NCBI GenBank assembly: GCA_003116995.1
Contig: BDSL01000092.1
Span: forward strand, 310,001-374,000
Origin: Yamagishiella unicocca
Lineage: Eukaryota > Chlorophyta > Chlorophyceae > Chlamydomonadales > Volvocaceae
DNA length: 64,000 nt
Reading direction: 5' to 3'
Shown: positions 13,395 to 55,098 of the stretch, one piece after another
Layout of the letters: every line of letters begins with the position of its first letter
Position numbering within the stretch: the first letter of the stretch is position 1
Translations under genes and position numbers: made by a program
The notes under the pieces: generated by a model
Databases searched by the model: none
What the model was told of the DNA's origin: nothing
Seen by the model: only the letters and a program-made list of their open reading frames with translations

Positions 13395-16300
13395 ATGACG
13401 CCAGAAGACGACGCCGACGAGCGTCGGTGGCAAACAGGTAGGATGTCTTTGGGTCCCGCGGCGCACACCTGGGTGGGGCTCAGTTACCGAGCATGCTCAG
13501 TACATAAACGTATCCATTACAATGTAGAGCAATATCCTCCGCGGCAAGGAACGTCAGCAACTGGGCGGTTCGCCACTCGTTACTCATCGCGCGCGCAAAG
13601 TATGAAGTCGTCATCTTGCCGCTATTGTATGCCTCATTATGTAGGTGGGAGAAATCCTGGCGTCAGGTCGTCTGCCATCCTACTCGAGCCACCGCCAGCG
13701 GCGGATGGCGGAGCAGGACTCGCCGCGAGCCTGCCGCCGGCAAACCGTCCACCCAGGCCAGCAGCATTAGCAATTCAGCTTGGTAACGTCAGTAATGATA
13801 CAACAAGTATCCTGGCATCACGAAACATGCAGCCATGTAATTCAAGGAGCAGCAGCAGCAACCCCTATGCCGAGGGCAACAAGGGAAACACTTGCACAGC
13901 CGCCATCACCACGCTCCGCACGTCCGGGGATGATGAGTCAGCACCTGCTGTTGCCCTGCTGTGCGACTCCAGTCGCGACAACTTATCTCCCAGATTGAGG
14001 GCAGCACGAGCAGCAGGCTGCTTCAAGGCTACTGCAGCAGCACTTCAAGGCTGCTGTTTGGGTAAAACCCAGCACGAGCCCGACACATGGGACATTAAGC
14101 GACATGGTGCCCGCGCAAAGGCGCTGGCGGTTGCACTACCCTGGCGAAAGAAAGCTTGGGCCTGGCTTGAAAGGGCCTGGAAGACAGCCCTGGTGCAGCG
14201 TATGGTGCGCATAGCAGGCTCGGCACTGTTCGTGTATGACGTGGTGATGGATGCGCTGGTAGCCAAGGTGCGTGTTGGTGCCCAACTAAGCTGCCAAGAA
14301 TGTCTGTCGCTGCTGGTGGTTGGTAGCACCTACCTTACTTTCCTGTGTATCTATCTCGCCCAAGCTACCATTGCAAAATAAACGGCTTTCTTACTCGCGA
14401 GGCCTGCTGGACCTGACACCTATCTCCTGCGTGCTTGCTTGTGTTTTTGCTTGCAGAACATGTTCAGCACCGATGGTTACAGAACCTTCGGCATACTGGT
14501 GGTGGTGTTCATGTTGGTGCATTACCCCTTCACCTACGTGATGCTTCTCTACGCTGCAAACAAGGCTTTTTTTGCCCAGCAAGCCATGCTGCCAATAGCT
14601 GCTGTGGCCAGCATCAAGTCTACTACTGCCACCACATTAGATGGCCAGCCACCCAGCAGCAGCAGTGGTGGTGCTTCAGCCGCACTTGCCACACCTCTTG
14701 TGGTGGTGCTGACGTCCATCCTCAAGTCCCTTCACATGTTCTTCTATGTGCTGCTGATTGTGTTTGGGATTCCACTGATCCCGGTCATGGATGTGTACAT
14801 GGTTCTGGCATCCCTGATGTGGCTGCCTGGCAAAAGCCCTGAGGAGGGTTACATGATGCGCATCGCTGGAGATGTGTGCCGCCATTACGAACGCATCCGG
14901 TTGCCGCTGGAGTGCTTTCTAGAAAGCCTGCCGCAGTTGATTATACAGGTTGGTGGTTACTCGCGAACACCAACTACCAGGTCTCGGGGTCTGCACATGT
15001 GTATCCTACCTAGCTGGTTCATGTACGTCTTATAGTCATATTTATCTATCTGGGGCCGGTTCTAGGGCCCTTCCCCAGTAAGAACCTTTACTTGCTGTGC
15101 GAATTGCTTGCACTTACAAAAAGAGGGTTTGAAGGTCATCAGCAGCTGCTATCACCATACTGAGGCGAACCAGCAAGTTATTCCCAACTTACAGGCTACC
15201 CCATAATATTGCGTCCCATTCTGGTGCTAGCTTGCACACTTCCTGTTGCCGACACTACTCGCTGGCACTCGCTGCCAGGCCCGCATCCCCTACTCACCAC
15301 CCCCCATTACCCCTTTTGATGAAACAACGCAGTCCATAGTGTATTCCCAGAACTTCTCGGACAATGTGCCACCAAAGAGTGTGCGTGTGACAAAGACGTT
15401 CCTGCTTATGTCTATCACCAGCAGTACGGCCCAGCTGGCCATGGTGATGGTCACCCTCATCCTGGCAAAGAGGGCCAGTGGAGGCACTTTCCTGCAGTAC
15501 CTCTGGGCGCTTTGGGGGCTGCAGGTGCGTGGGCGGGGGGGGGATACAGAAAATAACCGGTTACCCGACATGGGAAGTGCAGCTGGTGCATAGCGTGTTT
15601 GGGGAGGGGGCTGAGGAAAGCCTATGAACTAATGAGCCGAGCGAGTAGGAAACAATTTGGTACATGCACACGGGCGGGGGATATGAGAGGAAACTCATGA
15701 GTCTGTGATGGAAACCGATTGCACAAGGGGGGGGGCAATCCAAGCAAAAGGTGTTATGTCAGGGAAGAGCAACTCCATATAGGTACCAGCTCTTTCAGAT
15801 GTAAGCATCGGCACAAACCTGTGAAGAAATCACTTACCTCGTTGCATCAGCCCCACCCATCTACCCACCTGTTCACCCACCACCCAGGGGTTCCATGATG
15901 TGCCCCCCGAGGTCATGTCGATGGCTTCACGCAGGCTGGAGGAGCACCTGGGCAATGGCAGTGGCGACAACGGGCCGGTTGAGCAGCTGGCTGAAGGGGC
16001 CGACCCCACGGCGCAATTGGCCAGAACCCAGTTCACCCTCAGTGGCCCCAACAGCACTGTCAGCCAGCCACTTGTGGCCCTGCCCGACAGCAGCACAGGC
16101 ATGCTGTGGTCGGGTGGTGCTGGCCCGAGAGCATCCACAGCACGTACTAGGACCGGTAACACATCGCCCACCGACAGGTTGTATGGCAGATCCTCCCAGA
16201 TGTACCACAGTGGCAGCAGCCTTACATGGGCCCAGCGGCATTCTGTGTTCCAGCTGGGTGGCCCTGAGGACGCCGCCTACCAGGCGCTGTCCACCATTCA

Positions 16301-19300
16301 GCGTGGCGTGCTGGTCGACGGGCTGTTTGCCAGGGCAGATTTGCATCGGCTGGGTGCCCTCCATCTGCAGCAGCTGGAGCCGGAAGTGGTGTCACGTCTG
16401 TTCCGGAATCCACGCATTGCAACACTGCCGGCATACCTGAAGCTGGAGGACAGCTGGCGGCCAAAGCAGGGCCACCATGGGAGGAGTAGCAGCAGCAGGT
16501 TGCACCTGTCTGCAAGCCACAGCTCCAAGGGAGGGGTGCCAGCATACTTGGACGTGGTGACCAAGTGGCTGCCGGAGGTGGCCCTGGTAGCAGACCCCAG
16601 GTGGAAGCTCAGAGACCTGCACCTGGCACACCTGGAGCTGTGCAGCTGCTCCTCCACTGCAGGCGGTGGAGGCACAGCTGCAAGCAGGGAGGCGGTTCTG
16701 CGGCACTCAGCCACTGTGGGTGTCGCTCTGGCGCAGGTCCTGAGTGTGCAGCACCAGCTGACTTGGCTGCTGGTCGACAGGTGCGACGTGCATGTCCCAG
16801 CCATGTTGGAGGCCCTTGATGAGTGGCTTCTGGTGCAGCCAGTGGTGCTGGGGGCTGGTGATGACAATGAGGGGCTGGAGAGCAGGGTATTCATGAGCGG
16901 TGGCCAACGGCGACAGCAGCAGCAGTGCACACTGGTGGTGGTGCACTCCCAGCAGCAGCAAGACAGAGGTGAGGAGCTGGAGCAGTGGCTCATGGCCCGC
17001 GTGGGGCTGCCAGCAGCAGCAGTGGCAACCCCTGACATCACTGCCAGTCCCACCACATCCCGGAGGCAGCAGGGCCCTGGAGGCACCGCTACCAGCAGGG
17101 CCCTCCCCAGGGTGTGGCTCCGGGAGCTGCACATCATCCAAGACTCCGTCCCCAGCCTGGGACTGGCGGCTGAAGCACAGGTGTGTGTGAGGGGTGTGTG
17201 TGTGTGGAGGGGTAGCATGAAGACCCGGTTACCATACCCTCAGGGTATCATCATGCACACCAGTATATAAAAAAATTAATATCTTGCAAAATTGTGCAGA
17301 AACAAATATTGTTGTCTGGGTGTGCGCGACTTACAAAAATTAATTATCAGGCAGCCTGCACGACTTTGTAAAAACTGTGAGACGCCCCCATACTGTGCCA
17401 GAGTCAGTAGCAACACAAGGGGGGGGGGCCGGTAGCGGTCGACAGTAGTGAAGACGAGGGGCAGCAAGATCGTCAGCGGTGGGGAGGGGGCAGTGGAGGG
17501 GAGATGGTGACTGCTGGGGTAGTGAGGGGGAAGGGGGCAGTAGCCGCATACTTATTATACCGTTCTTCTCCAGACCTCTGTGGACTCTCCTATACTCCAG
17601 GCCTTAACAGGAATTGCTATTCTGATGACTTACTGACTCAGCGCGTCTTGTCACAATAGTAGCCGCGCGACTTTGAAATTAAATCTTGTCAGGGTTGCAC
17701 GACTCCAAAAACAGTCCCTTCCAGGGGTACACGATCTGGAAAATGGTTACGAAATTTAGGAGTGTGTGACGATCACTCGTAGATACTGTACACGATGATA
17801 TAGGAAACGGAGGACAGAAATTAACGGGGGGCTGGAGATAGAGGGGCCCAGCATGCAGGTCTGATGTGTTTTTGTGGTTGGACAGCCCACCACAGCCCCT
17901 TGTATGTGTCAGCCAAATCGTTGCCTGGACAATGGAAAAGCAAGATGATTGGTGTCAGGCCCTGTGGTAGACATGTCCACAATGCCATGGCCCTGTGTGG
18001 TCTTATGTATCACAGCGACTTCTAATGCAACCCCAGCCACATGTAGTACACAGCAGCACCCATCCGTTTCCTATGTCTCCACCCACGCATCCACCTACCT
18101 GCCCAACCTCCTACCTGCCCCATACATACAGGTGCTGGTGGTGCCACACCCGCGTGTCCCTGGTCTGCTAGATGCCCTGCTGCCGCTGCTGAGTGCAGTC
18201 TTGGCTCCAGCTGTACTGGATCTCAACAGTGCCGCCTTTAGCGAGCTGGGCCTGGATGAGGCCGCCCTCATTGGCGCCTGCCTGGTCGTCAACTCCTCAC
18301 TGGAGACCCTCAAGCTGCGAGCCATTGGTCTGCAGCCAGACAGCTTGCCACTTGTGCTGCGGGGGATGGTGACGCACAGCTGCCTGCGGTCCGTCGACCT
18401 GAGCTTCAACAACATTGGTGACAATGGGGTGAAGCTGCTCGCTGACACCATACCACACCTGCCAAACCTGAATGCGATCTTGCTGGTGCGCTACACTATG
18501 TTTGTTTGCGGGCGCGCACAAAAATATGGCCTCACCCGCCTCAGAGATGTGACATCGTATCATAGATGCCATTTGTTTGACACTGCTGGTAGCATTGCAC
18601 TCAGCAATCGAGGCCTTCCTGAGCAGGAATTTAGAAGTAAACGTTCAGTGCACTGGTTATTAGGCTAATCGATTCACTCGTCCATGGATGTGCTGCTGGC
18701 TCTCTGTTCTGTTTTGCAGGCTGGTTGTGGGATGGGTGCAACTGGTGCCAATGCTCTGGCCGGCCAGCTGCTATCCATTGGGGCGCACTCCCAGCTCGTG
18801 GAATTTTCGGTGCATGACAACAAGCTGGAATGCGCCACACCAGCCCTGGAGTGGGTGTGCTTCCTATTCAAGCAACGGACGGAGAAGTCGGCCAAATTGA
18901 CTCCGTCCCCATGCCTCGATGTAAGCAGAGTGGTGTGGCAGCATCTCGTTATGGCATTACTTGCTGGATTTACTACCCTGATTATTGGCCAGAGCCCGAG
19001 GATAGCCGTGGTGCATGCATGGAAATGTGGGAAGGCGGTTGTCATCTGAGCATTATTATCATCAGTCATTTCAGGAAACAGTGCTGGAGGATTTACTGAG
19101 CAACAAAGGTTTTTGGGCATTTGGGCGTAACTGGAATATGTCACATTAATTGATCGCCGATTGGGGCAGGATCCAGTTGAGCTGCTATGCATGATTCTCT
19201 CTTAGCTTGTATCATTGCTCTGTTGAGTTCTGCAATTTGTCTGCGAATTCTCTCATGGTCTGCATGCGCCTGCAGGGATTCCCAGACATCCCGACCTTTG

Positions 19301-22300
19301 GCCTAGATGCAGCGGCGCAGCAGGCCTGCTTCCAAGCTGTGCGCAGCAAGTCCCTATCAGTCTCTGGTGCGGGCTCAGTTGTGGTGGCTGGTCTGCAACC
19401 AGAGACACCTGCTGCTGGGAAAGGCCATAGCAACCAGCAGCTGGTGATGGGGTCTGGTGGCAAGTGGTACAATCAGGCTGCTAACAGGAAAGCACTGTTG
19501 TGCCTGCCTCCCAGGGCCGCCTTTGACCTTCGCCACCTGGTCATGGTGGCCGCTACAGCTGCTGTGGCACCCTCCCCAGTGGCGCTCGATGTCTCATCCT
19601 GGCTCGCCAGCAGTGGTGGCATGGGGGATGATGAAGGCCCCCCTCTGCTGAGTGAGCAGCAGCTCCTCCCTGGCTTCCAAACCCCGGGGGGTGCAGCAAC
19701 ACTGCTGGTGGCTGTAGCAGGTAGCTTGCTACATGCCGCTACTGTGCACCAGAGCACCACCCACCTTCACCTGCTGGATCTGTCTTTTGTGGATTTCTCA
19801 ACGCCCAAGGTCCGTTTGGACAGCCAACCCAGGGCTACTGGTCAGAGTATCATGCTGACAGGAGCCACTGCCACCATCACCAGTGGCCACAGCAGCAGTG
19901 CACCATACCTGCTCTCCACGCTGGAGCACCTGTGCCGGGGCCTGGCCAACAACAGGACACTGCAAGTGCTGCGGCTGGTGGGCTGTCAGCTCAGCAGCGA
20001 GGCTGCTGTGGTGTTGTGCAGTGAGCTGAGGAATGGCAGCTGCCCAGGCCTGCAGCACCTGGAGCTGCATCGGAACCCCAAGCTAGGCCACTGGGGTATG
20101 CAGAAGGGTGTGGTACCTCTCCTGGCAGCAGCTGCAGCAGGCCGCCATTTGTTGCGGCATGTCACCATCACACAAGGAGGTGAATCTGAGTGCAAGTATG
20201 GTGGGGAGCCACTGACAATCACCGCTGATGCAGATGTCTGGCAGTCAAACCCCAGCACCATACCAATGCTGCTGCACTCTGCTGCAGCGGGTTGGGCTGA
20301 TGATGGTGGCCACCACAGCAACAATCAGCAGGGCAGTCACAGGTTCACCAGCAGTGGCTTGCCTGCAGTAGCTGCTGCAGCTCCAGGGGGGTCACATGCC
20401 GGTTCTGGCAGCCATTCAGCTGCTGCTGGCCACAGAGCTGTCACACTGCTGGCACACTTGCAGCTGATCACTGGTGATGCTGTGGTGGACACACTAGTGC
20501 GATCCATGTGGCAGTGCAGCATGGCTGCCCCAGCTGATGTAATAGATGATGAAGCACCCTCCATCCCAGGGGTCGCAGCTGATGAAATACCCTCAGTTAC
20601 CCTGTTGGACACTCCAGCAGCAGCAGCAGTGGACTGTGCACGGGGTGTTGTGGCAGCCATCAAGATGGGCTCCTGCCCAGCTGGTGGCTCCAGCAACATG
20701 TTACCATCATCGGCTTTTACACCTGACACCTGCTGCACTGATGCCGGTGCTTCTGGTGATGGTACTGCCACCGGATCCCTGAACAGCATCTCGCTCCAGG
20801 TCTCCCGGGACAGCCAGATTGCAGCTGTGGCCCTCTCACTGGCCCAGACAGCCCCCCATGGCCTGGCAGCAAAGGTAAAAACACAATGCAAAGGCAGCCC
20901 TTTTGTGCCAGCCATGTCGTAGATGTAATAAGAGAAGAAAAATGTTTGTGTTAAGGATGCACACATGAAAAATGAATTTTGGATTACGTATGTACATATC
21001 TTGCATCATGCATCATTTTGCAATGATTTATATGTGCCTTGTCCATCCAATGGCAGTGCCACAACCACAAGTGTGTCACGTGTACATTGACACTCCATTG
21101 TAGTGCAAAGCAAGCAGCACCACCATTCGACAGCAGCCGCAGGTTCAAGCTGCCACACCTACCAACCAACCCATGATGTTCAACTCCATTCATTGTTCAA
21201 CTTAACCTCATTTGATGTTTGACTCTTTTGAATTCCTTTATCACTGTCACCTACCCACACACCAGGAAATCAATGTACGATGCCATGATGGGCATGTGCT
21301 CTCAAGCACCGCTGCAGAGTGGTTGGTTCAGGCACTTGGCAGCTGCACCTCAGTGGTGGGGGCATGCCGCCATGTCACCAATGGCACCACTGTTCCAGTA
21401 GGAGAAAGCCACCGCCATGTCCTATGTCTAGGCCCCGTGCAGCCCTCCGCCTCACTGGTGCGGTCCTTGGCAAGGCTAAGTGGGCTGCAGTCATGGGCAG
21501 GTGATGATGATGGTGATGCCCAGCAGCAGCAGGTGGGTGTGCAGAGTGTACAGACACCGGGCAGCACTGGTGCTGGCAGGCCATTGGTGAAGTGAGCAAC
21601 ACACTGATTAGCAGGTGGCGCTTCTGTGTTGCTGTGTTGCTGTTTTTGTTGGTTGTATGTATGGAAGTGTTGTGCAAACAATTTATCCATGGAGCTTACA
21701 TACATCAGATGTGTCATTCATCATAAGGTTCTGCCTATATGCACCCTCTAAGGGGCATATATCTGTGCACTATGTACAGGATTCATGTCAGCTAGCTGCC
21801 CCAAATATGCCGATAGTTGAGGTTGTCTAATCAACTTTTGTGAGTCACCCTGTGTGTGTACCAGCCATACATACATGCGGGTGGCCACAGTGGTGTCCTA
21901 CCTACCTAAGCTACCCCTATGTACCTAGGTAGTATCCTCATGTCTGCTGCCACCACTGCTATAACCTCTACAGGGTGCAATCACATTTGGCACCCCTGCT
22001 GCTGGGAGATCTGGAAAGGGTGGTGGCAGCAGCTGCTGTGCTTGGAGCATCCAGCTCTACTCGGGCAGCACTGAGGTGGATGCCTGCTGCAACGCCTTCC
22101 TGAACTATTGTCAGAAGCAGCAGAAACAGCAACAGGGTCATGATGCTGGAGATAATGGTGCCCCAGTTCACTCCCCAGCTGCAGGGGGGTCGCCCAACAA
22201 TATTGATAATTTCGTTAAACTGGAGCCTGCTGCAGTGCATCACCCGACCCTGCCAGTGAGCCCGGGTGTGATGCCCATGTCCATGAGGCCAGAGAGCACC

Positions 22301-25300
22301 ATGGCCCTGACCTGGGCCATCTGCCGCCAGCAGCAGCGACAGCAACAACATGTAAGGCAACAACAGATTGCATGTGGTGCTGCCTCTTCCAAGGGCAGCC
22401 TCTCTGGACCACAGGCCCATCAGCATCAGCAACAGCCCATGGAGCTGCAGGCTTGCCTTCCTGTGACGGCCCTGCTGATCCCGGTGCCAGCAGGACCCCA
22501 GGAGGAGGAGGTGAAGGTGCACGGGGGCTGTGAGAAGGTGGGAGGCAATGCTGCCATCAGCAATACGGCAGCCGCCCTGCTGGAGGCCTGCAAGGTCTGC
22601 AACCAGATGCAGCAGCAGCAGCTCCCAATGGTGGCCATTGGTGGTGGTGGTGCTCTAGCCGGTGCTCAGGTAGTGGTGCAGGGTGCACATCGGCTGACAG
22701 ATAATGATGCTGCAGTGCTGGCTGTGGCGCTGCTGCCCGGTGACATGGGGTGTGTGCATCAGCTGGTGTTCAGGAATGTGGAGCTCTCACCCACAGGCAA
22801 GAGAGAGAAGTGGGGTACATGCATGGTAGTGGTGGGGAGGTGCATGCGGCGGGCATACTTGGGCCTCCCCCAGGATGTCATCCGGATTAAGGGAATCCTC
22901 ACCATAAACCCGTACAATGAATGCGTCTGTCACGGTTTATGTCATCGCCTGGCAATTTAGTTGGCTGCAAACTGTAAAGCTGATTGGTTGTTATTGAGTA
23001 TGTGGGCACCTGGCAACAGGTAGGGCACCTGGCAACAGGTAAGGCGCTTGGTCTGATGACATTCCACCTATTATGATTGTTGGTAGCTAGTTTATACTAC
23101 CACTATTGTGACCATTATTGGTAGTTTGTACCACCACTACTGTGACATGGGTCAGACATAGTACACCACAACACATGCACCATCTCTCACCCTGCCCCAC
23201 CCCACTGTCCCCCCACAGGGTCATCCACACTGCTGCAGCTGCTGCCACTGCACGGCCGCACGCTGCACCACTTGGACGTGTCGGGCTGCAGGCTGGTTCC
23301 AGAGCTGCTGGCAGCTGCCCTGCTGCCCTGCAGCAGCCTGGAGCAGCTGCTGGTGGGTGGCTGGCAAGAGGCGCTGGCCCTTAAGGGCACGGGGCTGCTG
23401 CCAGAGAGCGCCACCAGCTGCCTACAGTTCAGGTACTTCCGAGAAGACTTCTCAGTGCGAGATGCGAAGACAGAGGATGAGGTGGGTGCAGACTGGGACG
23501 GGCGATGGATGGAGTAGGTGATACACATCATCAGCTGCTGCTAATTCTAGCACACACTCAGTGAAGATAAGCTCGGACCTCATAATGTATGCATGTCTGG
23601 TGGCAGGCGCTCCAAATGGCATTCTGAAGCTGCTGCCGACCATCTGATCCTTGTTGACTGCTCCTCTATCTCCCTGTTATACCATTTTGCCTTCAACACA
23701 CCCATCCTACCTTGCAGACGGCTCTGCTTTTGGCCAGCCACAGCGGCGACCTGGTGGCTGTGATGCGGCTGCTCAAGGCCAATGGAGTCAACCCTAACAT
23801 CATGGCCACGGTTAGCACCTGGCTGGTGGTGGTGGTGGTGATGGTGGTGGTGATGGGGGCTGACCAGGGGTGCAGCCAGCTTATACATCTTGGCCGTTGT
23901 GATTGATGCTAAGTAGGAAGGCGGCTTTCGTACACAAGAAAAGCAGTCTTCTGTACCCGCCTGCACCTCTTTCTGTCACTAACAATTGGCCCCCCAAGTC
24001 CTATCCTCCCATACTTATCGCGCCCACTGCTTCACTTCCCCCATCGCACGGTCTTGTGTGTAGCCACGGTGTGGGGTGCAGGCGACGTACACAGCCCTGC
24101 ACTGCGCCGTCAATGCGGGCCACAAGGGGGTGGCAGAGGCACTACTGTGGGCGGGGGCAGAGGCAGCTGTGAAGGATGACACCAAGGTGCGCTTGTCGAG
24201 TGTGTGCATGGGTGTGGTGGGTCTCATCACTTACTCATCAGCGGTTAGCCTCCACCATAGCTAGTGGCGGTGTTCCACCACTACACACTGCATGAGGCTG
24301 CCATCATGGTCTACTAGCTGCTGGTAGACGAGGGCATGGCGCTATCGATCTGTCTGTGTGCCTTGGCACTACATACGTACCCTCCTCCCTTCACACCCCC
24401 AGTGCTGCACCCCTGGCCTCTCCACAACCCCGGTGCTGTGATGCACCACTTATCACCCGTGAACCTGCATGGAGCGATGTGGTCCGCTGCTGCTGCCACT
24501 GCTGCCAGGTATCCATTCTTGCCCCCCTCATGCATCCCGCCCTCTCTCCCACCTTCCCTATCTCCCTGCCCACCCCAACTGAAGGATGGCAACCTCCCGT
24601 CACATGTAGCCTGCATCAAGGGCCGAATGGATCTCCTGGAAATGCTGCTGAGGTCGGAGGTGGACATTGAAGCCCGAAACACGGTGGGCGTGTGGCAGGC
24701 AGGCACCTGCACGAACAGCGTTATTAGTTGGTGTATGTGGTGAAAATGAGCGCACTGTTGTATGCCTTTATCTGGGCGGCGGGAAGTTTCCAAGTAAACC
24801 AATATGTGTTGGGGCTGCTGCACGGCCCTTGCATGAGTGGCTGCTGCACATATGGCGCCCCATGATCCACTGGTCATCCAACTCCTCACTGCTATCACCT
24901 AAGACGGCACCTGAGAGTCAGGGTGTCTAACCACAGATTGTTTACCAACAATCGCTGGTTCGATTCTGACCTCTAATGGCCTGCTTTTCAGTGAGAACTG
25001 GGGAGGGAGATGGGTCTGCTGGGGGCCCTGGTATGGGTAGAGCAGCATGGATCGCGCGGCTCTTCAGCTGTGTCCATGTCCACTCATACTGGCAGGACTC
25101 AATAGTTAAAATTTTTATATTTAAAAAATTATAAACCCCTAAATGCTCCGCCCGGGAAGTGCGGATCCAAGGCCCTAATAATGAGGTGACCTTGTGATAC
25201 GGGATGGCTGATACCCATCTAAAGGCCAGCGGGTCCAGAGCACATGGCTAGGGGCTGCAGAGGTACGGAGAATGTGTGTAAACAAACAACTGAGTAATCC

Positions 25301-30325: not shown

Positions 30326-30724
30326 GGAAACGACTGACATGTAGCGCCACATGACATTATGCCGTGCCAGCAACAGCAGCAGCAGGGACTGCAGCAACGG
30401 GACCAGCAGCAGCCAGACGGTATTGAGGCTGGGCTGTCAAGGCAGCCCACAGCTGGCGCCACGTATGTATGTTTATTGTGAAGTCACTACTGACTTTGAA
30501 ACGCATGGATATGTATGGCAAGTCGTGCTCCTTGGCGCTAGGGTGGCAAATGGATGTCTTCACCATTCAGCCTGTACCGGTACGACTGAGAGGCTTGTGA
30601 CACGTATGTGCGGCTGCTGGCTGGGTAGGTATATGAATGAACGTGTCCAGCGCCTGCCCGGTGTGCACGCATACATGGGGGTTCCATTCGTAGCCCAATA
30701 AAAGAAGTTCCTGAACTCGAGTAG

Positions 30725-30729
30725 TGTAA
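30725..30729 (+). terminator. Possible UGUAA polyadenylation signal
   Basis: TGTAA is the usual poly(A) signal of volvocine algae. This one, about 400 bp after the stop at 30325, is the first I see downstream on the plus strand. Copy 2 has the same at 55524-55528. Confidence 0.3.
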
Positions 30730-31189: not shown

Positions 31190-31370
31190 GACAGTGCGGT
31201 TCATCCCTCCTCTCCCCCCTGCGGTAGCCTTTGGGACAGCGTGCTTCGTTCCTTCTCTCACCCTGTGGTAGCCCCTTGGACAGCGCGGTTCATCCCTGCT
31301 TTCCCCTTACGGTAGCCTTTTGGATAGCGCGGTTCATCCCCCCTTTCCCCTAGCGACTGCTCTTTGGGAG
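31190..31370. repeat. ~40-bp minisatellite, about four units (copy 1)
   Basis: Units of the form ggacagcgcggttcatccc + pyrimidine run + ggtagcctttt. Copy 2 has about ten units at 56326-56830, so the array has changed length since duplication. Confidence 0.85.
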
Positions 31371-31469
31371 CCAGCCATGTGAGAGGAGGACGACCAGGCG
31401 CCAGTAAGCGAACGGACGGAGGGGGTTGGGAGGAGGACCTGGAAAGGCGTGTAGAGCGAGCAGCGACCC

Positions 31470-31990
31470 GTGGGGCCCAGGGGTGAAAGCACAGCCAACG
31501 CCGCCAGGCCTGAGTGCCTACTACGACGCGGTGCTGGACCCGCCGGCTGGCTGGGAGGCGCGGGCGGACCGGCGGGATGGGGCTGGCAACGGGTCCAGGA
31601 GGCGGGATGGGAGCTGGCAACGGGTCCAGGAGGCGGGTTGGGAGCTGGCAGTGTGGCGGGGTGGGAGCTGACAGTGTGGCGGCAGACCGTGCGGCCGGGC
31701 CTGACGCTGCAGACGTGCAGCCCAGCAGCGGATGTGCTGTCGTACATAAAGGACTATTGGTGTCGCTCGCACCCGGGCCACGTGGTGCAGACACGCGACC
31801 CAGTAGTCCGGGCGGCCTGCAGGGGCAGCTGTCGCATCTCTCAATGGTGGTCACGTTGGTGGGGCGGCAGGGGCCGTACTGCCGGCTGGGCTGCACGAGC
31901 AGCAGCGGGAATCCGTGCGAGTCAGCTGCAGCGGTGCCTCAGGGCTACCGTAAGGGATGCACTAAGGCAGCCAGCCGTGAGGCAGTGATT
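31470..31990 (+). CDS. Possible Argonaute-like fragment, copy 1 (uncertain)
   Basis: No complete gene is visible. A plus-strand reading contains VWRQTVRPGLTLQTCSPAAD followed by VLSYIKD; this faintly recalls the Argonaute linker-1 pattern W-x-G-x-x-Q-S-(V/L)-R-P-x-x-G-L-x-L preceding the PAZ domain. After a frame change near 31800 the text MVVTLVGRQGPYCRLGCTSS resembles the PAZ-type V-x-V-x-x-x-G-R-x-Y-R-(V/I) stretch. A 23-bp repeat (two units at 31639-31682) lies just upstream and changes frame with copy number. The block recurs at 57684-58338. It may be a pseudogene fragment, or unrelated non-coding DNA that happens to stay open. The minus-strand open frames across it are shadows. Confidence 0.25.
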
Positions 31991-32165
31991 TTTTTGAGGA
32001 ATAATCTTTTTAGGGATAAATCGGGTTTCTTGGGCTGGAAAAAAGGAATCGAGCGCAGTCCAGCCGTACGTTTTCGTTTTTTTCGAAAATTGCCTGTTTT
32101 CGCGAAGGCCCACCTAATTTATACTAAAAGGAGTCATGAAATCACTTTAGGATTAATGGTGAACC

Positions 32166-34800: not shown

Positions 34801-34802
34801 CA

Positions 34803-36110: not shown

Positions 36111-36118
36111 TGGATCGT

Positions 36119-37289: not shown

Positions 37290-37794
37290 CACCTAGGTGG
37301 CGCATGGGAACCTTTACTGCACTTGGGAATGACTCTCCTTAATAACTGCTCCACTCATTGGCTCTCGCAATGAATTTTGGTAAAGATGGAGGTATGCGCG
37401 ATAGGGTACGTAGCGCTAAGCTCAACGGCCAGGCTGCAACGGCATAGGTGCCGCGTTAACCACGAGGTACACAGTAAGCATATACGTCCTTTCTAAAGCA
37501 GAGCTTCGTGCATGATTGCGGACATGGTTTTGTTACTGTGACCGTTTGTGACTCCAGGGGAGGGTTCCCAGCACATTGGGGTGTCACGCTTGAGGCGGTG
37601 TCACGGCGGTCGTGCTTCGTACTACGCTATTGATGCGCGCATTATTGCAAGAATGTCATGAGCTATGTAATTCATCGTAGCTGATTGTTCACACGGCTGC
37701 ATCTACTTGACCAATAAATATACCATACTGCGAACATCAGTAATTTTCAGCGTGCGTACAAACTGTAGGAAGTAATTCATATGTAAGAAAGGGC

Positions 37795-43700: not shown

Positions 43701-46700
43701 CAGTTATTTCCACTTTAAGAAAACAGTGCTGGAGGCTTTACTGAGCAACAAAGGTTTTTGCTGCGTAATCCTGCGCAACTGGAATATATGTGACATTAAT
43801 TGATCGCTGATTGTAACAGGATCCAGTTGAGCTGTTTGATTCTCTCTTAGCTTGTATCACTGCTCTGTTGAATTCTCTCGTGGTCTGCATGTGTCTGCAG
43901 GGATTCCCAGACATCCCGACCTTTGGCCTAGATGCAGCGGCACAGCAGTCCTGCTTCCAAGCTGTGTGCAGCAAGTCCCTATCAGTCTCTGATGCGGGCC
44001 CAGTTGTGGTGGCTGGTCTGCAACCAGAGACACCTGCTGCTGGGAAAGGCCATAGCAACCAGGAGCTGGTGATTGGGTCTGGTGGCAAGTTGTACAATCA
44101 GGCTGCTGACAGGAAAGCACTGCTGTGCCTGCCTCCCAGGGCTGCCTTTGACCTTCGCTACCTGGTCATGGTGGCCGCTACAGCCGCTGTGGCACCCTCC
44201 CCGGTTGCGCTCGATGTCTCATCCTGGCTCGCCAGCAGTGGTGGCAGGGGGGACGATGAAGGCCCCCCTCTGCTGAGTCAGCAGCAACTCCTCCCTGGCT
44301 TCCAACACCCGGGGGGTGCAGCGACACTGCTGGTGGCTGTAGCAGGTAGCTTGCTACATGCCACTACTGTGCACCAGAGCACCACCCACCTTCACCTGCT
44401 GGATCTGTCTTTTGTGGATTTCTCAACACCCAAGGTCAGTTTGGAGAGCCAATCCTTGGTAGCCAGGGCTACTGGTCAGAGTATCATGCCAACAGGAGCC
44501 ATTGCTGCCACGATCACCAGTGGCCGCAGCAGCAGTGCACCATACCTGCTCTCCACACTGGAGCACCTGTGCAGGGGCCTGGCCAACAACAGGACACTGC
44601 GAGTGCTGCGGCTGGTGGGCTGCCAGCTCAGCAGTGAGGCTGCTGTGGTGTTGTGCAGTGAGCTGAGGAATGGCAGCTGCCCAGGCCTGCAGCACCTGGA
44701 GCTGCATCAGAACCCCAAGCTAGGCCACTGGGGTATGCAGAAAGGTGTGGTACCTCTCCTGGCAGCAGCTGCAGCAGGCCGCCATTTGTTGCGGCATGTC
44801 ACCATCACACAAGGAGGTGAAACTGAGTGCAAGTATGGTGGGAAGCCACTGACAATCACTGCTGATGCAGATGTCTGGCAGTCAAACCCCAGGACCATAC
44901 CAATGCTGCTGCAGTCTGCTGCAGCCGGTTGGGCTGATGATGGTGGCCACCATAGCAACAATCAGCAGGGCAGTCACAGTTTCACCAGCACTGGCTTGGT
45001 TGCAGTAGCTGCTGCAGCTCCAGGGGGGTCACATGTCGGTTCTGGCAGCCATACAGCTGCTGCTGGTCACAGAGCTGTCACACCGCTGGCGCACTTGCAG
45101 CTGATCACTGGTGATGCTGTGGTGGATACACTAGTGCGATCCATGTGGCAGTGCAGCATGGCTGCCCCAGCTGATGTAATAGATGATGAAGCACCCTCCA
45201 TCCCATGGGTCACAGCTGATGAAACACCCTCAGTCACCCTGTTGGACACTCCAGCAGCAGCAGCAGTGGACCGTGCACGGGGTGTTGTGGCAGCCATCAA
45301 GGTGGGCTCCTGCCCAGCTGGTGGCTCCAGCAACATGTTACCATCATCGGATTTTACACCTGACACCTGCTGCACTGATGCCAGTGCTTATGGTGATGGT
45401 ACTGCCACCAGATCCCTGAACAGCATCTCACTCCAGGTCTCCCGGGACAGCCAGATTGCAGCTGTGGCCCTCACACTGGCCCAGACAGCCCCCCATGGCC
45501 TGGCAGCAAAGGTAAAAACACAATGCAAAGGCAGCCCTTTTGAGCCAGCCATGTCATAGATGTAAGAAGAGAAGAAAAATGTATGTGTTAAGGATGCACA
45601 CATGAAATATGAATTTGAATTACATATGTACGTATCTTTAGCACCATGCATCATTTTGCAATGATGTATATGCGCCTTGTCCATCCAATGGCAGTGCCAC
45701 AACCACAAGCATGCCACATGTACATCAACACTCCATTGTGGTGCAAAGCAAGCAGCACCACCATTAGACATCAGCCACAGGTTCAAGCTGCCACACCTAC
45801 CAACTAACCCATGATATTCAACTCCATTCATTGTTCAACTCAACCTCAATTGATGTTCGACTCTTTTAAATTCCTGTCACCTACGTACCCACACACCAGG
45901 AAATCAATGTACGATGCCGTGATGGGCATGTGCTCTCAAGTGCCGCTGCAGAGTGGCTGGTTCAGGCACTTGGCAGCTGCACCTCAGTGGTGGGGGCGTG
46001 CCACCATGTCACCACTGGCACCACCATTCCAGTAGGAGAAAGCCACCACCATGTCCTGTGTCTAGGCCCCGTGCAGCCCTCTGCCTCACTGGTGCAGTCC
46101 TTGGCAAGGCTAAGTGGGCTGCAGCCATGGGCAGGTGATGATGATGGTGATGCCCAGCAGCAGCAGGTGGGTGTGCAGATTGTAGAGACACTGGGCAGCA
46201 TTGGTGCTGGCAGGCCGTTGGTGAAGTGAGCAACACACTGATTAGCAGGTGGCGCTTCTGTGTTGCTGTTTGTTTGTTTGTTTGTTGATTGTATGTATGG
46301 AAGTGTTGTGCAAACAATTTATCCATGGAGCTTACATACATCAGATGTGTCATTCATCATAAGGTTCTGCCTATATGCACCCTCTAAGGGGCATATATCT
46401 GTGCACTATGTACAGGATTCATGTCAGCTAGCTGCCCCAAATATGCCGATAGTTGAGGTTGTCTAATCAACTTTTGTGAGTCACCCTGTGTGTGTACCAG
46501 CCATACATACATGCGGGTGGCCACAGTGGTGTCCTACCTACCTAAGCTACCCCTATGTACCTAGGTAGTATCCTCATGTCTGCTGCCACCACTGCTATAA
46601 CCTCTACAGGGTGCAATCACATTTGGCACCCCTGCTGCTGGGAGATCTGGAAAGGGTGGTGGCAGCAGCTGCTGTGCTTGGAGCATCCAGCTCTACTCGG

Positions 46701-49700
46701 GCAGCACTGAGGTGGATGCCTGCTGCAACGCCTTCCTGAACTATTGTCAGAAGCAGCAGAAACAGCAACAGGGTCATGATGCTGGAGATAATGGTGCCCC
46801 AGTTCACTCCCCAGCTGCAGGGGGGTCGCCCAACAATATTGATAATTTCGTTAAACTGGAGCCTGCTGCAGTGCATCACCCGACCCTGCCAGTGAGCCCG
46901 GGTGTGATGCCCATGTCCATGAGGCCAGAGAGCACCATGGCCCTGACCTGGGCCATCTGCCGCCAGCAGCAGCGACAGCAACAACATGTAAGGCAACAAC
47001 AGATTGCATGTGGTGCTGCCTCTTCCAAGGGCAGCCTCTCTGGACCACAGGCCCATCAGCATCAGCAACAGCCCATGGAGCTGCAGGCTTGCCTTCCTGT
47101 GACGGCCCTGCTGATCCCGGCGCCAGCAGGACCCCAGGAGGAGGAGGTGAAGGTGCAGGGGGGCTGTGAGAAGGTGGGAGGCAATGCTGCCATCAGCAAT
47201 ATGGCAGCCGCCCTGCTGGAGGCCTGCAAGGTCTGCAACCAGATGCAGCAGCAGCAGCTCCCAATGGTGGCCGCCGGTGGTGGTGGTGCTCTAGCCGGTG
47301 CTCAGGTAGTGGTGCAGGGTGCGCATTGGCTGACAGATGATGATGCTACAGTGCTGGCTGTGGCGCTGCTGCCCGGTGACATGGGGTGTGTGCATCAGCT
47401 GGTGTTCAGGAATGTGGAGCTCTCACCCACAGGCAAGAGAGAGAAGTGGGGTACATGCACGGTAGTGGTGGGGAGGTGCATGCGGCGGGCATACTTGGGC
47501 CTCCCCCAGGATGTCATCCTTATTAAGGGAATCCTCATCATAAACCCGTACAATGAGTGCATTGGTCACGGTTTATTTCATCACCTGGCAATATAGTTGG
47601 CTGCAAACTGTGAAGCTGATTGGTTGTTAATGAGTATGTGGGCACCTGGCAACAGGTAGGGCACCTAGCAACAGGTAAGGTGCTTGGTCTGATGACATTC
47701 CACCTATTATGATTGTTGGTAGCTAGTTTATAAACTATCACTATTGTGACCATTATTGGTAGTTGGTACCACCACCACATAATACACACCACAACATGTG
47801 CACCCACTGCCCCACCCCACTGTCCCCCTACAGGGTCATCCACACTGCTGCAGCTGCTGCCACTGCATGGCCGCACGCTGCGCCACTTGGATGTGTCGGG
47901 CTGCAGGCTGGTTCCGGAGCTGCTGGCAGCTGCACTGCTGCCCTGCAGCAGCCTGGAGCAGCTGCTGGTGGGTGGCCAGCAAGAGGCGCTGGCCCTTAAG
48001 GGCACGGGGCTGCTGCCAGAGAGCGCCACCAGCTGCCTACAGTTCAGGTACTTCCGAGAAGACTTCTCAGTGCGAGATGCGAAGACAGAGGATGAGGTGG
48101 GTGCAGACTGGGATGGGCGATGGATGGGCGATGGGTAGGTGATACACATCACCAGCTGCTGCTAACTCTAGCACACACTCATTGAAGATATGCTCGGACC
48201 TCATAAGATATGCATGTCTATATAGTATATATATACTAGACCATGATGGCAGGTACTCCACATGGCGTTCTGAAGCTGGTGCTGACCATCCGATCCTTGT
48301 TGACTGCACCTCTATCTCCCTGTTATACCATTTGGCCTTCAACACTCCCATCGTACCTTGCAGATGACTCTGCTTTTGGCCAGCCACAGCGGCGACCTGG
48401 TGGCTGTGATGCGGCTGCTCAAGGACAAAGGAGTCAACCCTAACATCATGGCCACGGTTAGCACCTGGCTGTTGGTGGTGGTGGTGATGGGGGGTGACCA
48501 GGGGTGCAGCCAGCTTATACATCTTGGCCGTTGTGATTGATGCTAAGTAGGAAGATGGCTTTCTTACACATGAAAAACAGTCTTCTGTACCCGCCCGCCC
48601 CTCTTTATTTCTGTCACTAACAATCACCCCCCCAAGTCCTATCCTCCCGTACTTATCATGCCCACTGCTTTACTTCCCCCATCGCACGGTCTATCTTGTG
48701 TATAGCCACGGTGTGGGGTGCAGGCGACGTACACAGCCCTGCACTGCGCCGTCAATGCGGGCCACAAGGGGGTGGCAGAGGCACTACTGTGGGCGGGGGC
48801 AGAGGCGGCTGTGAAGGATGACACCAAGGTGCGCTTGTCGAGTGTGTGCATGGGTGTGGTGGGTCTCATCACTTACTCATCAGCGGTTAGCCTCCACCAT
48901 AGCTAGTGGCGGTGTTCCACCACTACACACTGCATGAGGCTGCCATCACGGTCTACTAGCTGCTGGGTGATGAGGGCATGGCGCTATCGATCTGTCGGTG
49001 TGCCTTGGCACTACATACATACCCTCCTCCCTCCACACCCCCAGTGCTGCACCCCTGGCCTCTCCACAACCCGGTGCTGTGATGCACCACTTATCACCCG
49101 CGAACCAGCTGCATGGAGCGATGTGGTCTGCTGCTGCTGCCACTGCTGCCAGGTATCCATTCTTGCCCCCCCCCCATCCCTCCCTCTCTCCCACCTTCCC
49201 TATCTCCCTTCACCCCAACTGAAGGATGGCAACCTCCCGTCACATGTAGCCTGCATCAAGGGCCGAATGGATCTCCTGGAAATGCTGCTGAGGTCGGAGG
49301 TGGACATTGAAGCCCGAAACACGGTGGGCATGTGGAAGGCAGGCACCTGCACGAACAGCGTTATTAGTTGGTGTATGTGGTGGAAATGAGCGCACTGTTG
49401 TATGTCTTTATCTGGGCGGCGGGAAGTTTCCAAGCAAATCTAAGTTGACTACTCGGCAGGATAGGTGGAGATATGACATACAACCCTGCCTCCTTAGAAC
49501 ATATGTGTGTATACCAAAATGTGTTGGGGCTGCTGCATGGCCCTTGCATGAGTGGCTGCTGCACATATGGCTCCTCATGATCCACTGGTCATCCAACTCC
49601 TCACTGCTATCCCCTAAGACGGCACCTGAGAGTCAGGGTGTCTAACCACAGATTGTTTACCAACAATCGCTGGTTCGATTCTGACCTCCAATGGCCTGCT

Positions 49701-52700
49701 TTTCAGTGAGAACCGGGGAGGGAGATGGGTCTGCTGGGGGCCCTGGTATGGGTAGAGTAGCATGGATCGCGCGGCTCTTCAGCTGTGTCCATGTCCACTC
49801 ATACTGGCAGGACTCAATATTTAAAATTTTTACTGTTAAAAAAAATATAAACCCCTAAATGCTCCGCCCGGGAAGTGCGGATCCAAGGCCCTAATAATGA
49901 GGTGACCCTGTGATATGGGATGGCTGATACCCATCTAAAGGCCAGCGGGTCCAGAAGGTGCTGGCACATGGATAGGGGCCGCAGAGATACGGAGAATGTG
50001 TGTAAGCAAACAACTGAGTAATCCCTAGTGGCCTCAAATCTGAGAGCTATGCGCCGGACGGCATAAATCCCGGGGATTCCTATAAACCCGCTTCGGCCGG
50101 AGTACGGATCATTATTATTATTATTAATTATTGCTCCTCACTGCTCCGTCTCTCATTCTATTACCGCTGTGTGCTCGCCCCACCACTACCTCGCTTACCA
50201 CTTGTTTCTTCCTCTTCACCTCCCCTCTATCTCTCCCCGTTGCAGCAAGGCCTGTCCCACCTACACTTGGCCAGTCTCCATGGAATGAAGGATGTGGTGG
50301 GTCTGCTGCTGCAGAGGGGCGCGAAGCTGACCAGTTTGGATAAGGTAGGGATGAGGGCGACATGCCACACGCACACCACCATACACAGCGCCGTACATGC
50401 AGTTCACGTGTCTGCACTGCCGCTCCTCTATTGCGCTGGTGATGTGGTGGTGACGACGGGGTACTGTCGCCGCCGCCTCGAACTGCCCCCCTCGGTCATC
50501 ATTACTCTCACCCCCGCTACACACGTCACCCCTGCAGAACGGGTCCACACCGCTGCATGTAGCCTGCAGCTCCGGCCACTTGGAGGTGGTGGAAATGCTC
50601 CTGCGGTGGGGGGCGGACGTGACGATCCCAGACTGGGTATGTACGTGTATGTACGGCTACACATACCCACAGGGTGGGCGGGTGGGTGATGGCCATATCA
50701 GCCCAGCCCTGGCCCTCAGACAGCAGATAGAGCACCCTGAACAGACCTTGCAGTGGATCGTGGAGGTCCCTCGGAGCCATGAGCGCACTGGCCTGTTTGT
50801 CGCATGTGTGTATGTTGTAACTTGCTTGGTAGCATTGCGGTCCCCTCCATCGCTGTGCCACACCCTGCAGCCTGCTGCTGGCAGAGGGTGAAGACACTGT
50901 CCCAGCAGTAGCTAGTGTCAGCCTGAGCGCGCCGTGTGGTGGCAGCAGCAGCCCCCACAGTCTGCTCCGGCACATGCAGCAGTCTACCTATCTGCTCGCG
51001 CATGCTGATGTGTTTATGCCATACCGTATGATGACACACCCTGTCACCACCCGCAGACCAGCAACACACCGTTCCATGTGTCCGTTGACAAGGGGCACGT
51101 GAAAGTCGTTGAGCGGCTTCTGTCTGCACCAGGGGTGGATGTGAACGATAAGAACAAGGTGGGTAGGCAGCCAAGGCTCTTGGGCGAGCGGAGGTGGAGG
51201 GGGAGGGGGGCATTGGTCTGGTTTATGGGAAACATCGAACATAAGGTTTAAACTAGCCAGGAGGCCAATGTCACACGGACTTCGGGATATGGATGGACGT
51301 ATACTTGGGCGCAAGGACCCTGGCATCAAGCTCGTGATTGCTGGGCATACATACGTCGGCATACACACATTGTGTGGCAAATGCAAGTTTCACTGTTGCT
51401 AATTGCGCCCGCCGAGCGATCCAATGCTCTCAAGGGTTCCTCCTGCCCACCCACGCATCCTGGACTCCAAACATATGTCACAAACGGTTTTTCCTTGTCT
51501 ATGGGTTCTTCGCACAACCCCGCGCGCCTGGACCCCGCCCGAGCATCCAAGCAACGAACCCGAACCCCGGAATTGCTTCTTTGGCTGCGTCAGGAAAGCC
51601 TCCGGAACGGGCTACACAAGGCGAGCCACCGGGGGTATCACCAGCTGGTGGAGTTGCTCATTGGAGCAGGCGGCAACGTGAACGACAAGGACTCGGTGCG
51701 TACTACCGACCCGGCTGGCCGTCTATCTCCTTGATTTCGGCTCTTCGCCTGTGAAGCAGCAGCAAGGCAGCAGCAAGGCAGCAGCAAGGCAGCAGCAAGG
51801 CCCAGCGCGCAAGGCAGCAAGGCAACAAGGCAGGCCTGCTGTGTGGTGGCTCGCCTGATAGAGGGTCAAAGCATAAGTTGCAGTCCGGGAGGGGTTATGA
51901 TAACTACTGAATGGATAAAGCCTTGACTGTTTACAGTCGGCCATGATGAGGGTCATGGAAGGTGAACCGACTATGAGACCTTAGGCATACCCAGGATATC
52001 TATCTCCACAGCGAGCCACCGTAGTGAAGCGGAAGCGGCTACTCGTCTTACAAGGGCCCTTACTCCAATGAGTGTAAGGTGTACAGCCAAATACTAGTGA
52101 TAATTGTTCGGTGCGCGTCAACCGGATATCATGACTACAGCAATAATCATGCTCTCGCATTAACCTAAGCGCTCACGTCTGATGTTACACGCAATGTAGA
52201 ACCGTCTTATCTTCAGATATGTCCGAGTCATTGCAGAAGGCAGGGCCCATCAGAGGCCGCTGAGCGAGGGTTAGCAACATAGGCATGCGGGTTCACTGGA
52301 TCCCACCTCTGCATGTCCCATCCCCCCCCGGCACCCCCCCCCCTACCGTACGTATCCCCCCCGATCCCGCAACTAATATGCATGCTGCCCGCGACGCGAC
52401 GTTTACCAATGTGGCCGCCAGTAGGCAGCAGCATCACACATGAACCTTACCTCCCCTCTCCTTGTCACGTGCATTGATGCGCCGTCGTGTCGACCCGCAG
52501 GCACAGGACACTCCGCTGCACGGCTCCTGCTCCGCAGGCCATCCCCACGTGGTGCGGATGCTGCTGGACGCGGGCGCGGAGGTGGAGGCCAAGAACAAGG
52601 CACGTGTATGTGTAAGGGGGGAGGATCAATATCTCGGTCTGGGGTGATGGCAATCGTGGTGTTGCACTGTGCTGCAGAGAATCGGGTTCCAATTGTCGGT

Positions 52701-55098
52701 ACCCGCCGCCGTGGCTATCCAGCTAGGTAGCTTGCGTATGTTGTGACCTTACGTGTGTGAGTGTGCGCGCGTGCTCACTACCCCCGCTCGCAGGATGGTT
52801 CGACACCTCTAATGCTGGCAAGCAACGGCGGGCACCAGGAGGTGGCGAGGATGCTTTTGCGCAAGGGGGCAGATGTGCACGCCAAGGGGGTGAGCAGCAA
52901 CAGTCGTCGTTGGGGAGTAAACAAGCAATCACACGGCGGGATACCTGGCGGGGCCATGCGTGCATTCCGAGTGTTGCCAAGCAAGATGCCCGTTGCCAGA
53001 CCTCAGTTGTTGCCTGCAATTGAGAGCTTGCCAAACGCCGGATGTGCGCCAAACACATGCGGATTTCCCCTCCTTTGCGTGTCTTAAAAAAAATAGCAGA
53101 AACGAGGAACAATGCTGAAACCTTCTTGTGTTAATATACCGCTAATAAGCCGCGACACTTTACGGACAATGGATGTGTCAGGCCTCAGCACGGACCGCCC
53201 TGCACAAGGCAAGCGTCCGCGGCAATCTACAACTGGCAGAACTGCTACTTAGGGAGGGAGGCGCGGACGTCAACGCCACGGACGCGGTGGGTGATGGGGC
53301 GTGCCTGGGCCGTACCTCGCGGGTCGTACGCTCACGGGTCGTACTCTCCCGGCGGGTCGTACACGGTCGGTCGCGGACGTGTTCGGGCGCCTGACTATCG
53401 GGTTATTAGCGATGTGCAGCTTCCACGGGTATTGGCGGGGCGTGCGGGTGACAGACTAGCAGCATAGCAATGGTGGTGACGAGGGGCGGGCAAATCCGCG
53501 ACGCCTCAAGATCCCTGTAAGCTGGGGTCCTTACACCGCCTGTCATCTGCGGTATCGCCTTTTCATGCATGCTTACACTCCCACTGTGCGGCGGGTGTAC
53601 GAACGTGGCGCCACGATGGTTGTACGACGCTACGCGACGCGCAGTTCGGAAATGAAGGCGGGGATGGACATGGGGGAGGAACTAAAGGGGCATTGGAGCC
53701 AGGCTCAGCATGGTGTGTATATGATTGGAAGCAAGGGAGGTGGCTTGGCTCCTTCCACGGAAGCCACAGCATCAGCGTTTAGGGTACTCTTGGGAGTTCC
53801 TTAGGAGGTCAGGTATGCCTGTCGTGTGCTGGTGGATGGGAAAAGGGACAACGGCCGCTCGCCCTGCACTACGTACTCCGAGTCATTGTGTCGGCACTCA
53901 CCCAGGCTCGGCCCCTCCGTCCCCTTCTTTCCCTCCTCATGCAGGATAGGGAGACCGCGCTGCACGCCGCCTCCCGTGCCGGCCACGCGGACGTTGTGGA
54001 GATGCTGATCGGCAGGAAGGCAGATATTGACGCGTGCAACAAGGTGGGGGTGGGGTTTTAGGGTTTTAAGGGTGGGGTTGGTAATAAGGCAGATGGTTGC
54101 ACGATGCTGCCGAGTAGTGGGTGTGCGGCACATCAGCGGCTGCTTCCATTGGCCAATTAAGGGGGGATTTGCGACAGCAGGGGAGGTGTCCGAGTAGGCC
54201 TTCTCGCAGCACGGATTTAAAGGGTAGTGGACAGCGCATTGTGGCATCCATACAGCGAGCAGGGGGGCCGATGGATAGTGACAGCTCGCACGAGGGCCTA
54301 AGGGGGGGGGAAGATTCCAAATTTCCAAATGTTGCCAGCTGTGAAAGGAAGCGTTTAGCCAGTTTCCGTGCATGGTAAGCTGCCCTTGAGTCTGTTTACC
54401 GGGCCCGCCGTCCTGCCATTTCTCAGCCTGTTAAGTTGCTAAATCATTGATTTAACCCATATAGCCGTTTGGTAGGGGCTGTACACCCCCCCCCCCTTAC
54501 TAACCTTTGTTGCTGTTAATGGCAGGACGGCAACACGGCCCTCCACCTGGCCGCACAAGAGGGGTGGGATCCGGTAATCAAGAGCCTGGTGGAGGCGGGC
54601 GCGAATTTGAACATCGTTAACAACGTACGTGGTCCCCCAGCACCAGTGGCTACCGGCAAGCGGCAACACCTTGTTGCCGTACCGTTGTGGCTGTTGTGGG
54701 CAGCACCCCTCGGATCGGCCGCTTTCCGCTGCTCGGCCGCGACGCATGCTTCCTGCGGCCTAGCGTGACTTATGCTACATACCCCCCGTACCGCCCATGA
54801 TTTCTGCTCCCCTCCTCGCCTTACCGCCCCTGACCCATGCTCACCTCCTATCCGTACCACGTGCTACTGCTGTGTGCATTGCCATGCCGTTGCCTCTGTC
54901 TTGCCTTCTTCCAATGACTGCCCCTTGTGGTGCCCATTGTGATCCCACTGCTGATGCCGCCGCCCGGCTGCACAGGATGGCAACGGTGTCCTAGACATTA
55001 CACTTAAACCAGATGCAGAGGAAATTCGGTTCAAAAACAGCAAAGCCAGAGCCAAAGCCGAACGAATCCAACGCCAAAACCTTGCCGACGATGGCTGA
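37795..55098 (+). CDS. XKR-like membrane protein with LRR and ankyrin arrays, copy 2 (23 exons, 2586 codons)
   Basis: Exons: 37795-38667, 38931-39422, 39754-39999, 40362-41654, 42588-42941, 43361-43561, 43901-45511, 45900-46166, 46610-47450, 47834-48096, twelve ankyrin exons (separate entry) and 54976-55098 with TGA. Exon borders, phases and sizes equal copy 1 except exon 7 (1611 against 1599 nt) and the last exon. The last exon here is 41 codons including the stop, ending in a charged helix-like tail (EEIRFKNSKARAKAERIQRQ), while copy 1 has 29 codons and a diverged tail; copy 1 appears to have lost about 36 nt. No stop or frameshift is seen, and many differences are conservative. Architecture: low-complexity N-terminus, XKR-like helices with LPLECFLESLPQLIIQ, interrupted RI-type LRRs, Gln-rich stretch, 12 ankyrin repeats. 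Both paralogues are therefore plausibly functional. Confidence 0.82.
48364..54624 (+). other. Ankyrin array, one repeat per exon, copy 2 (12 exons)
   Basis: Exons: 48364-48456, 48724-48828, 49225-49323, 50246-50344, 50538-50636, 51057-51158, 51594-51695, 52501-52599, 52794-52889, 53182-53286, 53945-54043, 54526-54624. Sizes and phases equal copy 1. Examples: NGSTPLHVACSSGHLEVVEM and DRETALHAASRAGHADVVEM (copy 1 has GGDTALHDAS at the same place). The possible GC donor after 52599 is conserved. Confidence 0.9.
49618..50133 (+). repeat. Candidate tRNA-headed retroposon with (ATT)n tail, copy 2
   Basis: Counterpart of 24905-25418 in the same intron, with the same hairpin and B-box-like sequence and a shorter attattattattattaattatt tail. 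Confidence 0.4.

Follow-up and report, generated by a model that had tools for sequence, protein, structure and literature searches.

Two adjacent genes, A and B, in a 64,000-nucleotide stretch of DNA (contig C92, positions 310001-374000; hereafter the window, whose own numbering is used below) are each predicted to encode one large membrane protein. In this reading, to which we give a probability of about 0.6, a module derived from one half of an XK-related (XKR) protein would anchor a cytosolic sensor or scaffold made of leucine-rich repeats (LRRs) and ankyrin repeats. A third copy, C, was found on contig C129 of the assembly searched (133,378,104 bases in 1,415 contigs).

The gene models were built by hand from exon peptides and splice sites and are sequence-based predictions. 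Gene A (13395-30481, plus strand) has 23 exons and a single open frame of 2,558 residues when exon 1 ends at the donor 14267; gene B (37795-55274, plus strand) has 23 exons and a single open frame of 2,555 residues. All 22 introns of each gene are GT-AG introns, in phase 0 save intron 9 (phase 1), and the acceptors are cag in both genes except for aag at exon 13. A preliminary description of this DNA had proposed two adjacent 23-exon genes, and the frame that runs open through the 22 introns in A and in B bears this out. Its figure of ~2,570 residues was near the lengths predicted here, and its end for copy B at 55098 was wrong, the stop lying at 55272-55274. The order that it gave, namely an XKR-like module, ribonuclease-inhibitor-type LRRs, and 12 ankyrin repeats in one frame, holds in A and B and is also that of C. 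The predicted features are as follows, with transmembrane helices abbreviated TM.

13395..14267 (+), A exon 1: low-complexity N-terminus ending in an XKR-type TM1, SALFVYDVVMDALVAK, with D282/D286; first ~160 nucleotides uncertain, alternative donor at 13438
14457..14948 (+), A exon 2: XKR-type TM2 (DG-x3-FG), a long hydrophobic segment at the IH1 position, and TM3 with E443/E447/P450/Q451 (ECFLESLPQL)
15333..15524 (+), A exon 3: loop after TM3, then TM4, where the XKR-like half ends
15888..17180 (+), A exon 4: 431-residue linker, without a match in Pfam, NCBIfam, or PADLOC
18132..18485 (+), A exon 5: ribonuclease-inhibitor-type LRR
18720..18854 (+), A exon 6: LRR carried on over the 5/6 join
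19276..20874 (+), A exon 7: weak LRR units inside low-complexity sequence
21266..21586 (+), A exon 8
21974..22814 (+), A exon 9: Q-rich segment, then an LRR-like start (by eye); the sole phase-1 donor
23219..23481 (+), A exon 10: LRR-like, carried on over the 9/10 join (by eye)
23718..29868 (+), A exons 11-22: 12 ankyrin repeats, one per exon, exons of 93-105 nucleotides, all phase 0
30371..30481 (+), A exon 23: short tail rich in Q, then the stop; tentative boundary
37795..38667 (+), B exon 1
38931..39422 (+), B exon 2: XKR-type TM2-TM3
39808..39999 (+), B exon 3: TM4
40362..48096 (+), B exons 4-10: linker and LRR region
48364..54624 (+), B exons 11-22: 12 ankyrin repeats
55185..55274 (+), B exon 23: includes the stop

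A simple gene-finding script agreed with the hand model at both boundaries for 10 of the 23 exons of A. Its best model omitted 13438-14217 as well as several ankyrin exons, and it used donor 14267 before exon 2. This exon 1 donor, AAG/GTGCGT, is kept in all three copies. An exon 1 end at 14318, used in the first hand model, was discarded, since it brought the module score under the XK cut-off and lengthened the TM1-TM2 loop by 17 residues. The choice of donor 14267 is only partly independent of the fit to XKR, since the script picked it before the XKR alignments were made but after XKR had been named. At the other end of exon 1 (C129:41567-40649, minus strand, in C), the frame of copy C is shifted within the first ~160 nucleotides when compared with A and B. 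It is therefore likely that this part holds a further small intron or that translation starts farther downstream, and the first ~50-70 predicted residues are uncertain. There is a donor-like CAG/GTAGGA at 13438; between the Met codon at 13602 and position 14267 the frame is uninterrupted in A, B, and C.

Genome searches with exons 1, 2, 4, and 7 returned three strong copies, which were A, B, and C; the exon 4 and exon 7 queries each gave one extra weak place (E 0.056 and 0.09). In C, exons 2-22 are open over 2,233 residues without a stop, with homologous splice sites and the domain order of A and B. Over exons 2-22, the ratio of non-synonymous to synonymous change (Ka/Ks) was 0.54 for A-B, 0.45 for A-C, and 0.51 for B-C, with a synonymous excess in all three pairs (Fisher p of 4e-5, 8e-11, and 9e-7, respectively). 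Every indel in exons 2-22 was divisible by three (2/2 for A-B, 2/2 for A-C), and among intron indels 54/71 (A-B) and 71/100 (A-C) were not. The in-frame indels and the Ka/Ks below 1 imply that the open frames are more than chance. The three-way comparison shows that one constrained coding frame, as predicted here, joins the membrane module, the LRR part, and the ankyrin part in all three copies.

The membrane module is laid out as TM1, TM2, a hydrophobic in-membrane segment, TM3, and TM4. Isolated modules ending exon 1 at donor 14267 were compared with the XK-related profile PF09815 (length 337, curated cut-off 24.8 bits). They scored 28.0 (A), 28.2 (B), and 26.5 bits (C), all above the cut-off, with E values of 1.4e-6, 1.2e-6, and 3.9e-6 and alignments running from profile position 4 to 182-202. 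PF09815 was matched by none of nine shuffled modules and not by the one reversed module; the best chance E to any family in those 10 sequences was 0.038. A hidden Markov model (HMM) was built from the sequences of the solved XKR8, XKR9, and XKR4. With donor 14267, the whole score of A against this model was reached by 1/5000 and 1/5000 shuffles and its best-domain score by 9/5000 and 2/5000; for C, the whole score was reached by 8 and 15 of 5000 shuffles and the best-domain score by 13 and 3. When aligned with XKR8, XKR9, and XKR4, the acidic pair DxxxD of TM1 (D282/D286 in A, B, and C) falls on XKR8 D26/D30. In TM3, the stretch ExxxExxPQ places E443/E447 on XKR8 E137/E141 and P450-Q451 on the PQL kink motif of XKR9, the motif reading PQL in A and B and PQF in C. 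Scrambling by XKR8 is reported to require D26, D30, E137, E141, R134 (K134 in mouse), and R183 (PMC8500837). XKR9 is described as being built from two four-helix repeats of related structure, and its TM3 has a kink at the conserved PQL (PMC8298096). We regard the predicted kinship of the module with the N-terminal half of XKR proteins as well supported, and to this extent the XKR relationship in the preliminary description stands.

Several results weigh against it. The full 2,558-residue chain of A, scanned as the preliminary description had suggested, scored 23.3 bits against XK-related, below the cut-off. With donor 14318, the modules scored 17.8 (A), 13.2 (B), and 11.0 bits (C) against PF09815, likewise under the cut-off. 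No PF09815 match was obtained in the controls for that donor (0/7 shuffles, 0/1 reversed); 2/8 of these control sequences matched other families at E 0.04-0.27, so that the values for B (E 0.045) and C (E 0.20) are uninformative alone. Against the three-XKR HMM, 1255/5000 and 904/5000 shuffles of the donor-14318 module equalled or exceeded the score of A, which is no separation. The homology thus depends on donor 14267, a single splice site that is predicted and was chosen partly for fit. Searches of PDB sequences with the donor-14318 and donor-14267 modules, as single sequences and as profiles, found no XKR, and AlphaFold2 modeled exon 2 alone with a pLDDT of 51, too low to be interpreted. 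The second XKR repeat was not found either: profile positions 203-337 were unmatched by the module, and no match followed TM4. Past TM4, the LRR region does hold eight hydrophobic windows; we interpret them as parts of LRRs or of low-complexity sequence rather than as helices.

Further inspection of the anatomy agreed with a half module. Exon 4 is free of hydrophobic windows exceeding the limit used. Among the introns, such windows are present in 1, 2, 5-8, and 10, with one marginal window in 4 and none in 3; by eye, no window in the introns or the LRR region was judged to be a second XKR half. R439 stands four residues before E443, as against three between R134 and E137 in XKR8, and is not an equivalent of R134. 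R183 has no counterpart in A because it belongs to the unmatched second half of XKR. In this prediction, the module is an XKR-derived half and not a canonical XKR scramblase. The scramblase-like output proposed in the preliminary description is unsupported by this anatomy, since only profile positions 4-202 of 337 were matched, exon 4 is without a hydrophobic stretch, and introns 3-4 hold one marginal window.

For the repeat arrays, Pfam scans of A gave LRR_6 at 29 bits (cut-off 23.4), Ank_2 at 295 bits, and 12 Ank stretches at a permissive E of 10, nine of them at E 0.05. Exons 5 and 6 joined matched NLRP LRRs in the PDB (best E 1.3e-13) and ribonuclease inhibitor (E 3.5e-12), in support of the earlier claim that an LRR is restored over the 5/6 join; the restoration claimed for the 9/10 join is seen by eye. 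The best PDB match of the ankyrin array was NOMPC, with ankyrin also matched. Exons 7 and 9 gave no match above a cut-off. Neither NACHT nor NB-ARC, and neither an Ion_trans six-helix pore nor another channel domain, was present in full-chain Pfam scans of A.

If the topology of XKR9 applies to the module, the N-terminus and everything after TM4 would lie in the cytosol. The half-XKR module would then tether a cytosolic LRR/ankyrin array to the membrane, and the array would bind an intracellular partner or ligand. The module might couple this binding to the membrane as an anchor, as an oligomerization unit or, less certainly, as a lipid-moving element formed from two paired halves. Arrays placed in the cytosol would be closer to the cytosolic arrays of the TRPA/NOMPC type than to a surface receptor. 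Of the receptor analogous to NLR or TRPA-type sensors suggested earlier, the TRPA/NOMPC-like part is retained; a surface receptor fits less well, and the NACHT or NB-ARC domain of an NLR was not found.

A possible but rather unlikely alternative is that the module began as an XKR fragment, was domesticated, and now serves only as an anchor, the protein being a plain ankyrin/LRR scaffold. The unmatched C-terminal half of XKR and the modest constraint (Ka/Ks ~0.5) are consistent with this. Against it, the four acidic residues and the PQ are invariant in A, B, and C, although C differs from A and from B at ~23.5 non-synonymous sites in exons 2-3.

At the other extreme, half-XKR modules might pair, as a homodimer or as A with B or C, into a two-repeat XKR-like fold, giving a scramblase gated by the LRR/ankyrin array. 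We consider this doubtful. Its appeal lies in the construction of XKR9 from two related repeats, so that one half could pair with another, and in the retention of the acidic TM1 and TM3 residues needed in XKR8. It is opposed by the lack of a counterpart to the required R183 and by the offset of one residue between R439 and R134; moreover, XKR9 is described as a monomer (PMC8298096). The fuller version, an algal family whose half-XKR modules dimerize into a scramblase under the direct gating of a cytosolic LRR and ankyrin array, and which would thereby be a living single-repeat XKR form outside animals, seems a shade more doubtful still. If true, the paired reading would put sensor and scramblase in one chain.

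It is improbable that the module is unrelated to XKR, a membrane segment that happens to have four helices and an LExFLESxPQL stretch arisen by chance. Such a view would account for the full-chain score of A, for the failure of PDB searches to return an XKR, and for a signal confined mainly to two short blocks. A fox XKR4 query of the genome is also in its favor: the query gave five weak places (E 0.08-2.7), three of them implausible by eye, and A, B, and C were not among them. On the other side stand the E values of 1.2e-6 to 3.9e-6 for the isolated modules, the best E reached by chance in 10 controls being 0.038. In a two-block test on the donor-14318 module, only 2, 2, and 1 in 1000 shuffles did equally well; by itself, the TM1 block was weak in that test (86-91 in 1000). 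In addition, the 127,996 six-frame residues of the window hold the pattern E...E..PQ in the two copies of exon 2 and nowhere else. A FLES-PQL match on contig C18 was rejected as chance; it sits in a hydrophilic stretch. A genome-wide search with the PF09815 family found no match anywhere, but neither did its control searches, which makes this negative uninformative. There may be further XKR-like genes in the genome, because the fox XKR4 query missed even A, B, and C.

Still less probable is the misjoining of two genes, one for the membrane and LRR parts and the other for the ankyrin repeats. The exon junctions are read from sequence alone, which leaves room for such an error. Intron 10, at the LRR/ankyrin boundary, argues against it, being just 236 nucleotides long in A and keeping its donor gtgggt and its acceptor cag in the three copies, and so does the identical exon order at three loci. 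That the copies are decaying tandem duplicates without function, as the frameshift in exon 1 of C and an A-B Ka/Ks of 1.1 over the ankyrin exons alone (5.5 synonymous and 18.5 non-synonymous changes) might suggest, is very improbable in view of the open exons 2-22 in three copies, the significant synonymous excess, and the in-frame coding indels.

A and B are tandem copies with collinear blocks from ~12905/37298 to 32085/58440 at 83.6-98.7% identity. In 1-kb steps, identity was 98.9-99.6% in the first three (12905-15904 versus 37298 onward) and 93.9-98.6% past 15904; the higher identity of this 5' block points to a probable recent gene conversion. The ankyrin exons (23718-29868) are symmetric, in phase 0 with one repeat per exon, so that the array could grow by exon duplication. 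We infer that tandem duplication gave A and B and that C arose as a dispersed copy, with probable gene conversion and an expansion of ankyrin repeats one exon at a time also contributing to the growth of the family.

Elsewhere in the window, a fragment of a Ty3-type retroelement polyprotein with reverse transcriptase, RNase H, integrase, and chromodomain lies at 5398-7968 on the minus strand. On C129, sequence upstream of copy C shares 96-99% identity with the window segments 5081-5857 and 8392-10350. Tandem arrays of 23-bp and 44-bp units (31586-31705 and 57867-58032; 31190-31350 and 56326-56827) lie downstream of A and of B and are longer after B. Minus-strand open frames at 34800-36000, in the part of the A-B interval that was not duplicated, look coiled-coil-like by eye; four pieces of them matched no Pfam family above the cut-off. 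A nucleotide search of phage records gave no match.

XKR scramblases are known chiefly from animals. Protein database searches with queries of 1130 and 278 residues gave no match among proteins of 0.55-1.75 times the query length, a range that places ~2,550-residue proteins outside their scope. A search with an alignment that included animal XKRs gave 263 matches; the best 120 of the 263 all carry PF09815, and those with a named organism are vertebrates. A vertebrate-only listing obtained with animal XKRs is not informative on algal relatives. The preliminary description knew of no described protein with this order, and the literature search did not contradict it: no XKR-LRR-ankyrin protein was mentioned in the titles or abstract beginnings among the literature matches listed, full-length sequence homologues being outside the scope of that search; nor did the literature search return a paper pairing XK-related with Chlamydomonas or XKR scramblase with choanoflagellate. 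If a genome that appears to be algal encodes a half-XKR module retaining the key acidic residues, this would bear on the origin of the two-repeat XKR fold and on whether a single repeat can work alone. The fusion of such a module to LRR and ankyrin arrays would make a testable single-chain sensor-membrane protein.

Compared with known systems, the predicted proteins resemble XK-related proteins (XKR8, XKR9, XKR4; PF09815) in the order TM1-TM4, the DxxxD of TM1, the ExxxExxPQ of TM3, and a PF09815 score above cut-off for the isolated module. They differ from them in matching the N-terminal half only, in a longer hydrophobic segment between TM2 and TM3, and in carrying the LRR/ankyrin extension where XKR has its C-terminal half. 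Plant membrane proteins of the ACD6 type also combine ankyrin repeats with membrane helices; they are not known to have LRRs or XKR-like residues. With NLRs (NLRP), the proteins share the ribonuclease-inhibitor-type LRR, an NLRP chain being the best PDB match of exons 5-6, whereas A is without NACHT or NB-ARC in Pfam scans and is predicted to be membrane-anchored. Like TRPA1 and NOMPC (TRPN), the latter the best PDB match of the array, they would join a big ankyrin array to a membrane domain; unlike those channels, they show no ion-channel domain in Pfam scans, place the array C-terminally, and add LRRs.

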